From: Halorubrum sp. JWXQ-INN 858
Lineage (GTDB): Archaea > Halobacteriota > Halobacteria > Halobacteriales > Haloferacaceae
Length of the DNA: 64,000 nucleotides
Assembly (NCBI RefSeq): GCF_009806985.1
Contig: NZ_WUAX01000005.1
Location: forward strand, 1-64,000
Direction: 5' to 3'
Shown here: in pieces, positions 14,666 through 54,254 of the stretch
Position numbering within the stretch: position 1 is the stretch's first letter
Layout of the letters: each line of letters opens with the position of its first letter
The notes under the pieces: generated by a model
What the model was told of the DNA's origin: nothing
What the model saw: only the letters and a program-made list of their open reading frames with translations
Database searches by the model: none
Made by a program: the position numbers and the translations under genes

Positions 14666-14693
14666 CCCCCCCACCCCTTCGTTTCGACTGGAG
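14666..14693 (-). promoter_or_regulatory. ORB with G-string, left arm of origin
   Basis: Read on the minus strand: ctccagtcgaaacgaagggg, then t and a run of seven G. Binding site expected for Orc1/Cdc6. It matches the right-arm box exactly over the cgaaacgaagggg-t-G7 part and differs in the outer ctccagt versus gttccacc half. Confidence 0.85.
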
Positions 14694-14740
14694 GACGACG
14701 ATCGAGTGGGGGAGGGGGGTCGGAACCGCAGGACGAACAC

Positions 14741-14838
14741 GGGCTCATAGCTTAAATTTAGAACACGCCTTATGATATTTTCTCAGGTAGAGGACCGAGG
14801 GTACTGTTCGCTATAGCGGTTAATAAAACCTGCCTTTG
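14741..14838. other. AT-rich candidate unwinding element
   Basis: Between the two inverted ORBs the base composition drops sharply: cttaaattta, ttatgatattttct and ggttaataaaacc fall here, with a gctatagc palindrome at 14810-14817. Archaeal origins usually have such an element between oppositely oriented ORBs. Confidence 0.7.
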
Positions 14839-14878
14839 AAGAACCCGACTTTCGACCCCACCCCCACCTTCGATCTCG

Positions 14879-14908
14879 TGTTCCACCCGAAACGAAGGGG
14901 TGGGGGGG
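14879..14908 (+). promoter_or_regulatory. ORB with G-string, right arm of origin
   Basis: The plus strand reads gttccacccgaaacgaaggg, then gt and seven G. This is the mirror partner of the left box, about 200 bases away. It is the closest match in the origin to the lone ORB found at 54233-54254 (21 of 22 bases). Confidence 0.85.
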
Positions 14909-15602
14909 TTGAGTCACGACGGGTCGTTAGTGACGACGGGGTCGATAACTGCGGTTGGATGATGACGTACTGGAGGGTTCGACGGTGACGTACTGGAACG
15001 GTGTTCGGACGGCTCGACGGATCCGGGCGGGGTCACCACGAGAACCGTTCGATATCCAACGGAACCTGTCAAGAAAAGTCCGAAACGACGTTAGGACTCC
15101 ACAAACCTCCGTCGACGTCATGGGTAGATCGCGTTCGATCGACTCAGGGGCGTTCCTCTCACCGCTACCGAATCGCCCGAACGTCCCGTGGTAACAGGTC
15201 CTTAACCGTGGGAGACCGCTCGTTGCGACCCAGTTCGTTCGATCCGTCGTGACACACCTGACTCGCCCCGAAGTGTACCGATCGAACGTCGCCATCGAGG
15301 ATTACTGTTCCGTACGTTCAACCGGTCCGCTACTGATCCAACCGATCCGTTACTAATCAATCGCCTCCGTAGCGGACTCGAGACGGTCCTGTGGACGACG
15401 AACCCTCCCGGCGTCTCCCGTGAGATCCCTTCGCTTCCACTCTAGAGAGGAACACTTTTGTACCATCTCTTCATCTGGTTCGAGTGCATCAATTGGACAC
15501 GTCCTCGCTGCTACTGCCGCCACAGCCTTCCGTCTAATGGCTGTCTCGGTGCTAACTCGGCATCATCGGACGTTGTTTCCACACGAAATAGGGGGGTTTA
15601 CG

Positions 15603-17303
15603 ATGGACGAAAACACACCAGACGCGGGCGAAGGATCGGGGAACGACGAGACCGGAAACGGTGACCATCCCACCCGAAACGGAGCCCCTTCGACTTCCGA
15701 TCGAGCCGTAGCGGCCGCCGACGAGGACGCCGTCCCCGATGACGACTCATCCACCGACTCGTCTATCGACCCAGCAACCGACCCAACAACCAACCCAGCA
15801 ACCGACCCAGCAACCGACCCAGAGACCGATGACGTTACGGTCGATCTCGAGAGCGGCGGCCGGGACCGATCGTCGACCGACGTCGACCTCAACGGGGTCG
15901 TGCTCGACGACGATGACGACACCCAAGGACTGTTCGACGACCTGCTCTCGGGCGAGCCGATCTTCGAGAACAAAGAGGTCCTCCGTCCTTCTTACACGCC
16001 ACACGAGCTCCCGCACCGGAACGACCAGATCAACCAGATGGCGACGATCCTCGTTTCCGCGCTTCGCGGTGAAACCCCCTCGAACATCCTCATTTACGGG
16101 AAGACCGGTACCGGAAAGACAGCGTCCGCGAAGTTCGTCTCACAGGAGCTCGAATCGACCTCTCAGAAGTACGATGTCCCCTGTGAAGTCGAATACATCA
16201 ACTGTGAAGTGACGGACACGCAGTACCGCGTGCTCGCACAGCTCGCGAACAAGTTCATCGAGAAGAACCAGTCGCTTATCGACGCCCGCCTCGACCGCTG
16301 TCGGGAGCTCAGATCAGCCGCCGAGGAGGACCCGTCGTCGATCGAGCGGACCGAGTTCGTCGATCGCGACGGATTGGACGAGCGCATCGACGACCTGGAG
16401 GCCGACGCAGCCGAAATGGAAGAAGTACCGATGACGGGGTGGCCGACCGACCGGGTGTACTCGACGTTCTTCGACGCCGTTGACTACCACGAACGCGTCG
16501 TCGTGATCATGCTCGACGAGATCGACAAGCTCGTCGAGAAGAGCGGCGACGACACCTTGTACAACCTCTCGCGGATGAACTCCGAGCTCGGCAACTCGCG
16601 GATCTCCATCATGGGTATCTCGAACGACCTGAAGTTCACCGACTTCCTCGACCCCCGCGTCAAATCGAGCCTCGGCGAGGAGGAGATCGTCTTCCCGCCG
16701 TACGACGCCAACCAGCTCCGCGACATCCTTCAACACCGTGCCGACATCGCGTTCAAGGTCGACGCCCTGACCGACGACGTGATCCCGTTGTGTGCGGCGT
16801 TCGCGGCACAGGAACACGGCGACGCTCGGCGCGCGCTCGACCTCCTCCGGACCGCGGGCGAGCTCGCGGAACGGTCACAAGCGGAGATCGTCGGCGAAGA
16901 GCACGTCAGACAGGCACAGGACAAGATCGAACTCGACCGCGTCGTCGAGGTGGTCCGGACGCTCCCGACACAGAGCAAGATCGTTCTCTTCGCCGTCATC
17001 CTCCTCGAGAAGAACGGCGTCCACAACATCAACACTGGCGAGGTGTTCAACATCTACAAACGGCTCTGTGAGGAGATCGACGCCGACGTGCTCACCCAGC
17101 GTCGGGTCACCGACCTGATCAGCGAACTCGACATGCTCGGGATCGTCAACGCCGTCGTCGTCTCGAAGGGTCGGTACGGCCGAACCAAGGAAATGGGGCT
17201 GTCCGTGCCCGTCGAGGAGACCGAGGCCGTCCTCCTGTCGGACTCACGGCTCGGGGACATCGAGAACGCACAGCCGTTCGTGCAGGCCCGCTTCGACAAC
17301 TGA
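15603..17303 (+). CDS. orc1: Orc1/Cdc6 replication initiator
   Basis: AAA+ ATPase that binds ORBs and starts replication. In the 566-residue product, residues 1-105 form an acidic low-complexity tail with a TDPA/TDPT/TNPA repeat coded by 12-base units (about 15768-15830). The core has Walker A GKTGTGKT (about residue 165), Walker B MLDEID (about 302), sensor SIMGISNDLKF, and a C-terminal winged helix that recognises ORB DNA. I chose ATG 15603 because it follows a G-rich ribosome-binding-like stretch and begins the acidic tail; the frame is open back to 15420 without protein-like sequence. It reads away from the adjacent origin. Confidence 0.96.
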   Translation: MDENTPDAGEGSGNDETGNGDHPTRNGAPSTSDRAVAAADEDAVPDDDSSTDSSIDPATDPTTNPATDPATDPETDDVTVDLESGGRDRSSTDVDLNGVVLDDDDDTQGLFDDLLSGEPIFENKEVLRPSYTPHELPHRNDQINQMATILVSALRGETPSNILIYGKTGTGKTASAKFVSQELESTSQKYDVPCEVEYINCEVTDTQYRVLAQLANKFIEKNQSLIDARLDRCRELRSAAEEDPSSIERTEFVDRDGLDERIDDLEADAAEMEEVPMTGWPTDRVYSTFFDAVDYHERVVVIMLDEIDKLVEKSGDDTLYNLSRMNSELGNSRISIMGISNDLKFTDFLDPRVKSSLGEEEIVFPPYDANQLRDILQHRADIAFKVDALTDDVIPLCAAFAAQEHGDARRALDLLRTAGELAERSQAEIVGEEHVRQAQDKIELDRVVEVVRTLPTQSKIVLFAVILLEKNGVHNINTGEVFNIYKRLCEEIDADVLTQRRVTDLISELDMLGIVNAVVVSKGRYGRTKEMGLSVPVEETEAVLLSDSRLGDIENAQPFVQARFDN

Positions 17304-17311
17304 CCGGCCGG

Positions 17312-18373
17312 TTATCCGCCCGCAGTCGACACCGCTGTCGGGGCACCGTCGCTCCCGACCATCGGACCGGAACCGTCTCCGACCTCACCGATCGAACACC
17401 CGGTGACGTCAGCCGTGCCGTTTCCGACGGGTTCCGGCCCTCCTCGTGTCTCGTCGGCGATCACGGGATCGATAGGTATCGCGACGGAGAGGACGTCGCC
17501 GGTATCCGCTTGTCCGGTCGCGATGAGTCTGATGTACCCGAGATACGGGACGCGAAGCCTCGCGACCCCGGTAACCCACTCGGCTTTGACGGGCTCCGAG
17601 AGGCCGTTCACCTGGTCGTACTGGCCGTTGTTGTCCCCGAGCGTGACGAACCCGTCGTGCGGTGCGGGGCAGTTCCGGAGGTCCGCACAGTCGTCCGCAC
17701 GGTGGAACCGCTCGTCCGCGCGGTCGTACCAGTCCTCGCCCGCCTCGACGTGAAACATCGCCCGGTGGATGATGGGCGACGCCGTCCGATCGGGCGGTTG
17801 GAAGATGATGACCGAGCCGTACGATCCGAAGGTCTCGTATCCCGCCGCTTCCCCGGCTTCGGAGGTGACGACGCCGATGTCGTTGTTCGCGGCGTCGGGG
17901 GCAAACCGTCCTGGCTCGGTGACGAACACCAAGTCACCGACCTCCATGTTCGGCTCCATGCTGCCCGACTCGACGGCGACCATGGGCGGCCAGACCCCGC
18001 TCACGGCGAACAGCAGCAGGCCGAGCACCAGCACGATGAGGGCGCTCGAAAGCATCTCACGGACCCACATCAACGGGCCGTCAGTATCGTGGCGGAACCG
18101 GTGGAGGAGGGACTCGTCGACCGCGTCGTCGCCGATCGCCCGATCGACGTCGTTGAATCCGTCGGCGGCGGCGGCCGGCCGGCCATCGTCACCGTCGGTA
18201 TCCAGGTCGTCAACCGGCCGCTCACCGTCGTCGACCGTATTGTCCTCGACGGCCTCGTCGTCGACGGTCTCGTCGTCGACGGTCTCGCACTCGACCGTCT
18301 CGTCGTCGTCTACCGGCCGATCAACGTCGTCAGCCCCGTCGTCGGCCGACGTCGGTCGATCCCCTTGATCCAT
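17312..18373 (-). CDS. signal peptidase I (S26B, archaeal Sec11-like)
   Basis: Membrane protease that removes signal peptides outside the cytoplasm. The 353-residue product begins with about 95 acidic residues rich in TVDDETVDDE-type repeats. A transmembrane helix follows (SSALIVLVLGLLLFAVSGVW), then catalytic serine in ESGSMEPNMEVGDLV (about residue 137) and box D-like IIHRAMFHV with histidine (about 201), the Ser/His pair of archaeal enzymes. FVTLGDNN is the last conserved box. The long acidic tail is unusual for the family. A TATA-like CTTATAGCC lies about 28 bases before the start. It is convergent with orc1, nine bases apart. Confidence 0.92.
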   Translation of the reverse strand: MDQGDRPTSADDGADDVDRPVDDDETVECETVDDETVDDEAVEDNTVDDGERPVDDLDTDGDDGRPAAAADGFNDVDRAIGDDAVDESLLHRFRHDTDGPLMWVREMLSSALIVLVLGLLLFAVSGVWPPMVAVESGSMEPNMEVGDLVFVTEPGRFAPDAANNDIGVVTSEAGEAAGYETFGSYGSVIIFQPPDRTASPIIHRAMFHVEAGEDWYDRADERFHRADDCADLRNCPAPHDGFVTLGDNNGQYDQVNGLSEPVKAEWVTGVARLRVPYLGYIRLIATGQADTGDVLSVAIPIDPVIADETRGGPEPVGNGTADVTGCSIGEVGDGSGPMVGSDGAPTAVSTAGG

Positions 18374-18522
18374 CGTTCGTGAGTTGGCGAGTTTCGGCTA
18401 TAAGTCTCCGGGTCCGGTTCGATCGTCGGTATCCCGTCATCGGTATCCCGAAGCGATCCGCGGAGCCCGCCGCCGGATCGGCCTCCGGAACTGTTTTGAC
18501 TCGTACCGGCCTCTCAGAGGAC

Positions 18523-20166
18523 GTGCCGCTGGAGTCGAACGCCCGTATCGTGAGCGAGCTGGCGCGCCGGGGCTACAACGCCGAACGCGAGGCCGTCACG
18601 CTCCTCGCCGGTGCCCAGAACCCGGTGGTCGCGATGGAAGCCGCCGTCGATCACGCGCCCGACGACGCCCTCCGTATCACCTCCGATCACGTCCGGGCCG
18701 CCATCGAGAACACGCCCGGAAACGCTACCGATAGCCTCGCCGACGACCGTGACAGCGGTGTCACCACCGATCGTAGCGGCGGGGGTGTCACCGACGACCG
18801 TAGCGGCGGTGTCGCCGACGATACGGCTCCCGGCCCAACCCCGGCTTCCGGTCCACCGGCTACCGACGATCCCTCGGGGACTGAACGCGGATCTCCAGTC
18901 GAAACGAAGGGGTCGAAAAACGAGAGCGGATCGGCGTCGAAACACGTTAGAGACCCCGAACTCCGACAGCTGGAGATCGGCAACGACATGACGGGGAACA
19001 GCACCGGGACGGGCGAGTACATGGACTTCGTCCGGACGTTTCGCGACCGGTACGCTCGCCTCTCGAAGGTCCTCCGTGGTCGTGTCACCCACCGACCGGC
19101 CGAGGCGATCGCGGACATGCCGGGGGGGAGCGACGCCGCCATGATCGGGCTCGTCAACGACGTCCGATCGACGAAGTCCGGCCACTGGCTGATCGAACTG
19201 GAAGACACCACCGGGACGTTCCCCGCCCTCGTGATGAAGGACAAGGGGTTGGCCGACGTCGTCGACGAGATCCTGATGGACGAGTGCGTCGCCGTCGAGG
19301 GAACGCTCGCGGACGACGCGGGGATCCTCTTTGCGGACGCGCTCCACTTCCCCGACGTGCCCCGGACCCACCGTCCCGGTGCAGCCGATCGCCACGTGCA
19401 GGCCGCGCTCATCTCTGACGTCCACGTCGGGAGCGACGAGTTCATGCTCGACGCGTGGAACCGGTTTACCGACTGGCTCCACACGCCGGAGGCGGATCCG
19501 GTCGAATACGTCCTCATCGCTGGCGACATGGTCGAGGGCGTCGGAGTCTACCCGAACCAGGACGAGGAACTCGACATCGTCGACATCTACGAACAGTACG
19601 AGACGTTCGCGGAGCACCTGAAGGACGTCCCGGGCGACACGGAGATCGTGATGATTCCCGGCAACCACGACGCCGTCCGGCTGGCCGAACCGCAGCCCGG
19701 CTTCAACGAGGAGCTCAGGGGGATCATGGACGTTCACGACGCGCGGATCGTCTCGAATCCGGCGACGGTTACCGTCGAGGGCGTCGACGTGCTGATGTAT
19801 CACGGCGTCTCGCTCGACGAGGTGATCGCGGAACTGCCCGAGGAGAAGGCGAGCTACGACGAGCCGCACAAGGCGATGTACCAGCTCCTCAAGAAGCGCC
19901 ACGTCGCGCCACAGTTCGGCGGACACACGCGGGTCGCCCCGGAGGACCGTGACTACTTGGTCATCGAGAACGTTCCGGACGTGTTCCACACCGGCCACGT
20001 CCACAAGCTCGGCTGGGGGAAGTACCACAACGTGCTCGCCGTCAACTCCGGCTGCTGGCAGGCACAGACCGATTTCCAGAAGTCCGTCAACATCCAGCCC
20101 GACTCCGGGTTCGCCCCCATCCTCGACCTCGACACCCTCGAGATGACCGTCCGGAAGTTCGCCTGA
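18523..20166 (+). CDS. polD1: DNA polymerase D small subunit (DP1, exonuclease)
   Basis: Proofreading subunit of the archaeal replicative polymerase D. The start is the GTG at 18523, giving MPLESNARIVSELARRGYNAEREAVTLLAG as in other haloarchaea. Of 547 residues, about 1-65 form the N-terminal helical domain; about 66-150 a low-complexity linker with DRSGG repeats; then an OB-fold (TKSGHWLIELEDTTGTFPALVM). The calcineurin-like phosphoesterase has all metal motifs: SDVHVGSDEF (about 297), AGDMVEG, PGNHD (about 379), MYHGVS, and HTGHVHKLG (about 488). An exact ORB core lies in the linker DNA (18893-18913). The large subunit is not in this window. Confidence 0.95.
   Translation: MPLESNARIVSELARRGYNAEREAVTLLAGAQNPVVAMEAAVDHAPDDALRITSDHVRAAIENTPGNATDSLADDRDSGVTTDRSGGGVTDDRSGGVADDTAPGPTPASGPPATDDPSGTERGSPVETKGSKNESGSASKHVRDPELRQLEIGNDMTGNSTGTGEYMDFVRTFRDRYARLSKVLRGRVTHRPAEAIADMPGGSDAAMIGLVNDVRSTKSGHWLIELEDTTGTFPALVMKDKGLADVVDEILMDECVAVEGTLADDAGILFADALHFPDVPRTHRPGAADRHVQAALISDVHVGSDEFMLDAWNRFTDWLHTPEADPVEYVLIAGDMVEGVGVYPNQDEELDIVDIYEQYETFAEHLKDVPGDTEIVMIPGNHDAVRLAEPQPGFNEELRGIMDVHDARIVSNPATVTVEGVDVLMYHGVSLDEVIAELPEEKASYDEPHKAMYQLLKKRHVAPQFGGHTRVAPEDRDYLVIENVPDVFHTGHVHKLGWGKYHNVLAVNSGCWQAQTDFQKSVNIQPDSGFAPILDLDTLEMTVRKFA
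18893..18913 (+). promoter_or_regulatory. ORB sequence inside polD1
   Basis: The plus strand reads ctccagtcgaaacgaagggg followed by t, identical over 21 bases to the left-arm ORB of the origin (14673-14693, minus strand). It has no G-string. It falls in the part of polD1 coding for the low-complexity linker (residues near SPVETKGSKN), about 4.2 kb from the origin. Whether Orc1 binds here is unknown. Confidence 0.7.
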
Positions 20167-34488: not shown

Positions 34489-34743
34489 CCGTCTCGGGAT
34501 CCGGTCGTCCGATATGAACCCCCTTCTTTCCGGTGGAAATCGCAACACCCCGGCACGATATAGTTCCAGTCGAAATGGGTTAAATCGGCAGATACTGACA
34601 CGCGATCGTGAGCGTCGGACTGCGATGGAGGCTGCGACGCCGGTGTACGGGCGGACGCCGAATCGGTTGACGGCGTTCGCGATCGGGTCGACGCAGGAGA
34701 TCGGGTCGCGCGACCCAGTGCCGGACGACGCGGCCACAGAGAA
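34489..34743. other. intergenic with ORB-like pair
   Basis: Between cgi121 and tRNA-Gln. The plus strand acccccttctttccggtgga at 34518-34537 resembles an ORB with one inserted and one missing base. gttccagtcgaaatgggt at 34563-34580 resembles the opposite orientation. The pair flanks a short AT-richer patch. The rest (34581-34743) shows no gene or repeat I can support. Confidence 0.45.
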
Positions 34744-54232: not shown

Positions 54233-54254
54233 ACCCCTTCGTTTCCGGTGGAAC
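54233..54254 (-). promoter_or_regulatory. lone ORB between serA and the CorC-like gene
   Basis: The plus strand accccttcgtttccggtgga plus ac; its complement matches the origin's right-arm ORB (14879-14900) at 21 of 22 bases. It has no G-string, inverted partner or AT-rich stretch. It is 39 kb from the origin and about 56 bases before the CorC-like ATG, where it could affect that promoter or bind Orc1. Confidence 0.65.

Follow-up and report, generated by a model that had tools for sequence, protein, structure and literature searches.

The gene for the small subunit of DNA polymerase D (polD1) carries within its coding sequence an origin box (ORB) of the oriC1 type, which selection has almost certainly kept there. 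In the window, the whole 64-kb stretch of DNA from a Halorubrum-type haloarchaeon analysed here, CTCCAGTCGAAACGAAGGGGT at 18893-18913 on the plus strand is the exact reverse complement of the left ORB of oriC1 at 14673-14693 on the minus strand, confirming the 21-base identity on which the original prediction was built. Retention of the box at the DNA level in most haloarchaea suggests that the replication initiator also acts on polD1. We put at about even the chance that Orc1/Cdc6 truly recognizes the box, that purifying selection maintains it for this reason and that the oriC1-linked Orc1 would bind there and modulate polD1 transcription. The inverted-pair architecture, the spread across haloarchaea and an ORB at the orc1 start codon go beyond what had been noticed before.

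The two origin ORBs are inverted, the left one on the minus strand and the right one at 14881-14901 on the plus strand. Each is accompanied by a G-string (14666-14672, read on the minus strand, and 14902-14908, respectively), and the interval between them (14694-14880), 47% AT overall, holds the AT-rich unwinding region. The oriC1-linked initiator gene orc1/cdc6 (15603-17303, plus strand) was identified by Cdc6_C and Cdc6_lid Pfam matches; a 12-bp tandem repeat near its 5' end (ACCGACCCAGCA-like, 15743-15826) codes for a repetitive Asp/Thr/Pro-rich stretch. A putative S26-like signal peptidase gene (17312-18373, minus strand; PF10502, E = 0.00049, below the curated cut-off) separates orc1 from polD1, which occupies 18523-20166 on the plus strand and was assigned by PF04042 (E = 2.6e-15), PF00149 and alignment. 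The polD1 start, GTG at 18523, is inferred from the conserved VPLE, the longest open reading frame beginning at 18379. Replication genes cluster around oriC1, in an account that makes no mention of ORBs inside them (PMC4441112), and polD1 is essential in Halobacterium (PMC1906834).

With GTG 18523 as the start, the box begins 370 nt into polD1 and encodes (S)PVETKG(S). By alignment it falls in the variable linker that joins the N-terminal region of DP1, the small subunit, to the conserved catalytic part. The left ORB is 4.2 kb away, so that the location originally proposed, in the variable linker about 4 kb from the origin, also holds. An internal start codon past the box was considered and rejected, since inspection of the alignment by eye showed no conservation of the Met at the next ATG (DMTG). 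Scored with a position weight matrix made from 93 G-string-bearing boxes to describe origin boxes, which may include a few polD1 boxes with G-rich 3' flanks (for example, L064 and L065), the window box reaches 36.3 against a median of 37.3 for origin boxes and thus matches the ORB profile of oriC1. At up to three mismatches the 21-mer has three matches in the 64 kb and 0.00 in shuffled sequences. At the same tolerance the 3.1-Mb genome contains just the polD1 box and the left and right oriC1 ORBs, the right one differing from the polD1 word at three positions. Shuffles, genome-wide count and the profile results for 129 genes given below rule out a chance match as the source of the polD1 box, and the earlier view that such a match is unlikely by chance is upheld by the shuffles together with the selection on the DNA.

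To follow the box through other species we took 59 genomes ranked as relatives, finding polD1 by protein search and ORBs by pattern and profile, and a wider set of 80 named loci from public genomes; the counts below cover 129 distinct polD1 genes. Within Halorubrum a sense ORB stands at the same place of the linker in nearly every polD1, with variants that include CTCCAGTCGAAACGGAGGGGT, CTCCAGTTGAAACGAAGGGGT and CTCCAGTCGAAACAGAGGGGT; the box of L035 is decayed (score 13.7). At least one ORB was found in the linker of 111 of the 129 genes at a score of 15 or more, in the sense orientation in 108, antisense in 61 and both in 58, whereas the conserved 1,140 nt of the same genes reached that score in 1 of 129. 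The box is therefore kept in nearly every Halorubrum polD1 and in most other haloarchaeal polD1 genes despite the varying linker, the check that had been suggested for it. Absence from close relatives, named beforehand as grounds for refuting the prediction, is decisively contradicted. The density of ORB-like sites in the 80 named loci is 0.75 per kb within polD1, 0.48 per kb within the origin/orc1 zone and 0.036 per kb in the remainder.

In these named loci the full element proved to be an antisense ORB followed by a sense ORB, seen in Haloarcula, Natrinema, Natrialba, Halococcus, Haladaptatus, Halorientalis, Natronomonas and others. Its G-rich ends point outward and it lies approximately 350-400 nt into the gene in core haloarchaea. 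Of the 62 pairs with both arms scoring at least 12, 52 had a start-to-start distance of 57 bp and six a distance of 54 bp, and the arms were always in the same reading phase. Halorubrum mostly keeps the sense arm alone, yet Halorubrum vacuolatum (L105) has both, indicating that the antisense arm was lost later in most of the genus. On a DP1 tree, with support that is modest in places, the pair is found as deep as L055, with scattered losses and at least 13 changes between box and no box. The polD1 boxes are ancestral in core haloarchaea. Several Haloferax, two Natrinema and Halolamina pelagica have a decayed box or none (L118, L119, L123, L135, L136 and L158), and such loss in several lineages implies that the box is not essential everywhere. 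No intragenic ORB was found in the DP1 genes of 20 non-haloarchaeal genomes (methanogen-type), nor in those from several haloarchaeal families that are deep-branching or divergent (L056, L057, L059 and L060), which rules out an ancient euryarchaeal feature. Many of the loci lacking an intragenic ORB in DP1 do have ORBs near orc1.

The codons under the sense box are nearly frozen: Glu is GAA in 108/108 cases, Gly is GGG in 107/108, Pro is CCA in 102/103 and Ser is TCT in 61/61, compared with a mean synonymous identity of about 0.5-0.7 in other columns with the same amino acids. Conversely, the encoded residues vary (K/E/G/R, T/M and S/A/V/T/D) where the ORB tolerates change. When codons were resampled synonymously from each gene's own usage, 169 of 169 sites scored above expectation (P<0.01 each, median ∼1e-4); the sites were preselected at a score of at least 15 and the species are related, yet the threshold is passed by 108 of the 129 genes, and the columns used for comparison have an identical phylogeny. 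These data bear directly on the possibility that PSVSTG and SPVETKG in the linker serve as short linear motifs, with the ORB match as a by-product. The constant reading phase of the arms would suit conserved peptides, as would the lack of protein conservation in the rest of the linker. However, the synonymous positions are fixed to ORB letters while residues change, every site beats the resampling, and it is implausible that two different peptides should encode one origin word on opposite strands by accident. We reject peptide conservation as the main cause and consider it very improbable.

An equally small chance attaches to a hairpin in the polD1 mRNA. Where both arms are kept they form inverted repeats, as a hairpin would need, but arms of the same species match at 17.22 of 21 positions and arms with shuffled partners at 17.15 (fraction 0.33), so the arms do not co-vary, and most Halorubrum have one arm only. 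Frozen codons beneath variable residues, the resampling result and the lack of co-variation between arms together indicate that selection acts on the DNA. The flanks and the spacer of the pair are unconserved, and nothing else nearby is strongly conserved.

Complete identity of box and origin ORB in this species could also reflect recombination between origin and gene, as had been proposed, or gene conversion, either of which would have copied an origin box into polD1. This did not survive comparison with other species and is the least probable of the readings considered. The flanks of the two sites are unrelated, the match stops at the ORB edge without taking in the G-string, and the boxes are ancestral in core haloarchaea. 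Moreover, polD1 boxes resemble the origin of their own species barely more than those of other species (17.82 versus 17.60 of 21). The window holds the sole real case of a polD1 box identical to its own origin ORB, the apparent copies at L064 and L065 being self-hits of their polD1 boxes; elsewhere polD1 boxes are ORB-like and not copies of the origin box of the species.

Because the box is neither a chance match nor free of DNA-level selection, the other three suggestions made for it, an accessory Orc1 site, a link to expression and titration of Orc1, are all live options. In an accessory role, Orc1 on the polD1 pair might loop to oriC1, handcuff it or aid helicase loading there, or the pair might be a degenerate secondary origin. 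The polD1 sites do share with the oriC1 ORBs the 21-bp word, recognition by the origin-box profile, and an inverted arrangement with G-rich ends outward, so that the two arms are oriented relative to each other as at the origin; the pair is also usually near the origin. In contrast to origin boxes, however, they lie within a gene, with another gene between polD1 and orc1, and have neither the extended G-string nor an AT-rich unwinding element. The G-string is absent beside the window box, which is followed by CGAAAAA, and the seven flanking bases contain on average 2.0-2.4 G at polD1 boxes but 6.07 at origins. Autonomous replication from oriC1 of Haloarcula hispanica requires the G-string (PMC3936714). 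The spacer of the polD1 pair is 36 bp long and GC-rich (31% AT, versus 52% AT at origins), and the 220 nt around the window box are 35% AT. The start-to-start spacing of 57 bp is likewise far from the median of ∼227 bp for origin pairs. A secondary origin is ruled out by the missing G-string and AT-rich element.

The box is linked to polD1, not to the origin. G019, G009 and G026 have polD1 and the origin pair on one contig, ∼35-41 kb apart, and G014 has them on different contigs; a good or exact box is kept in all four. The polD1 pair also persists at several of the named loci where no origin pair occurs within 9 kb. Retention of the box at such distances, with the differences in flank, spacer and spacing, makes an accessory function at the origin improbable.

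Among the remaining options we favour an effect in cis on polD1, on the grounds of identity to the origin box, selection on the DNA and linkage to the gene; whether the box has a regulatory role seems to us, from these sequence comparisons, an evenly balanced question. Binding by Orc1 is the simplest way to read these sites. In the proposed scheme the oriC1-linked Orc1 would bind the ORB or ORBs inside polD1, and bound Orc1 would modulate transcription of the gene, for instance through contact with the origin or by standing in the way of RNA polymerase; such a road-block would be the most direct way to act from within a gene body. As a companion, orc1 might control itself through the ORB just before its start codon, which would make the Orc1 circuit a very small one. 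How much DNA polymerase D is supplied could thereby depend on the level of the initiator or on its nucleotide state, in a direction and with a physiology that we infer. Against regulation, the site is in the gene body and not in a promoter, which is unusual for transcriptional control.

The main rival, which we consider unlikely though clearly more credible than an accessory role, is that the polD1 pair acts near the origin as a sink that takes up Orc1, limiting free initiator and preventing over-initiation with no control of polD1. In its favour, a distance of 3-5 kb to the origin is usual for the sites, which would therefore replicate early, and other single ORBs are conserved within tens of kb of oriC1. 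Analogues exist in datA of Escherichia coli and the ORB cluster oriC2D of Haloarcula hispanica; for the latter, titration of Cdc6E has been proposed from experiments, and a titrating role has been suggested for ORB-rich regions that lie outside origins (PMC3936714). Like the polD1 sites, the oriC2D ORBs lie outside the origin proper but near it and are proposed to bind an initiator. However, oriC2D is intergenic, has 11 ORBs and concerns Cdc6E, whereas polD1 has one or two oriC1-type ORBs inside a gene and no cluster of many. A sink needs neither a fixed place in one gene nor a fixed 57-bp spacing and phase, and the pair follows polD1 when gene and origin separate.

Regulation of polD1 by Orc1 would have a precedent in Sulfolobus Orc1-2, a transcription factor that binds its own promoter and those of DNA-damage genes (PMC9738581). 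This is likewise an archaeal Orc1/Cdc6 protein regulating its own and other promoters, but it is a non-initiator and uses an ANTTTC motif in promoters, not ORBs in gene bodies. Bacterial DnaA boxes outside oriC, in the dnaA promoter and datA, offer a functional analogy as initiator sites serving autoregulation and titration; initiator and site are both unrelated to those of archaea. Most regulatory boxes of DnaA lie in promoters or intergenic clusters.

The polD1 box bears on how archaea match the supply of replication proteins to initiation. It also offers a precise target, as it can be erased by synonymous changes that leave both the protein and the origin untouched. We found no report in the open-access literature of ORBs inside polD1 or of polD1 regulation by Orc1. 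Surveys of haloarchaeal ORBs have been confined to intergenic regions beside orc genes (PMC3528665, PMC4595724) and would have missed an intragenic class. The degenerate signal in several sampled Haloferax, relatives of the main genetic model, may be another reason why the sites were overlooked.

An ORB-like site in the window, TTCCACACGAAATAGGGGGGT (15577-15597, plus strand; matrix score 21.6), ends 5 nt before the orc1 ATG at 15603 and is a probable autoregulatory site of orc1. A further ORB on the orc1 side was found in 93 of 100 loci with an origin pair and, among those listed, mostly lies 3-6 nt before the ATG. These orc1-side ORBs often contain GGAGG and may overlap a ribosome-binding site as well as an autoregulatory site. 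The strict pattern YTCCANNYGAAAYRRRGGGGK occurs at exactly four sites in the 3.1-Mb genome (origin left, origin right, orc1 start and polD1), and G004 and G008 have the same four sites and no others; the genome-wide counts given here were obtained by pattern matching, a stricter filter than the profile. More tentatively than for the polD1 site itself, we suggest that the oriC1 initiator may also be a gene regulator with a tiny, ancient regulon, comprising the inverted pair in polD1 and the ORB at its own start, through which the amount of initiator or its ATP state would directly set how much replicative polymerase is supplied. Such a regulon would represent an archaeal counterpart of DnaA-style replication control acting through intragenic sites.

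The profile also detected sites further from the origin. An ORB without a G-string lies upstream of a serA-like phosphoglycerate dehydrogenase gene (54233-54253, minus strand; score 34.3), where its distance from oriC1 is ∼40 kb in the window and, in two relatives (L096 and probably L238), ∼24-33 kb, and a weak ORB-like site, TTCCACCGGAAAGAAGGGGGT, was found at 34518-34538 on the minus strand (score 20.7). In at least two families (L095, L097-L100, L227, L229, L232, L233, L236 and L239) a conserved ORB in either orientation stands 3-27 nt past the stop codon of cgi121, which encodes a KEOPS subunit, downstream of hel308 and ∼12-62 kb from oriC1. The cgi121 ORB adjoins a tRNA-Gln gene in those Halorubrum loci that were scanned. 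With the serA-like, 34518 and hel308-cgi121 ORBs, the circuit extends beyond orc1 and polD1. In two other genera the 3' ends of helicase genes of the rad3/XPD type carry ORBs (L242, L245 and L244, with L242 identified by eye), and in one genus of this set an ORB also lies just upstream of an XPB-type gene.
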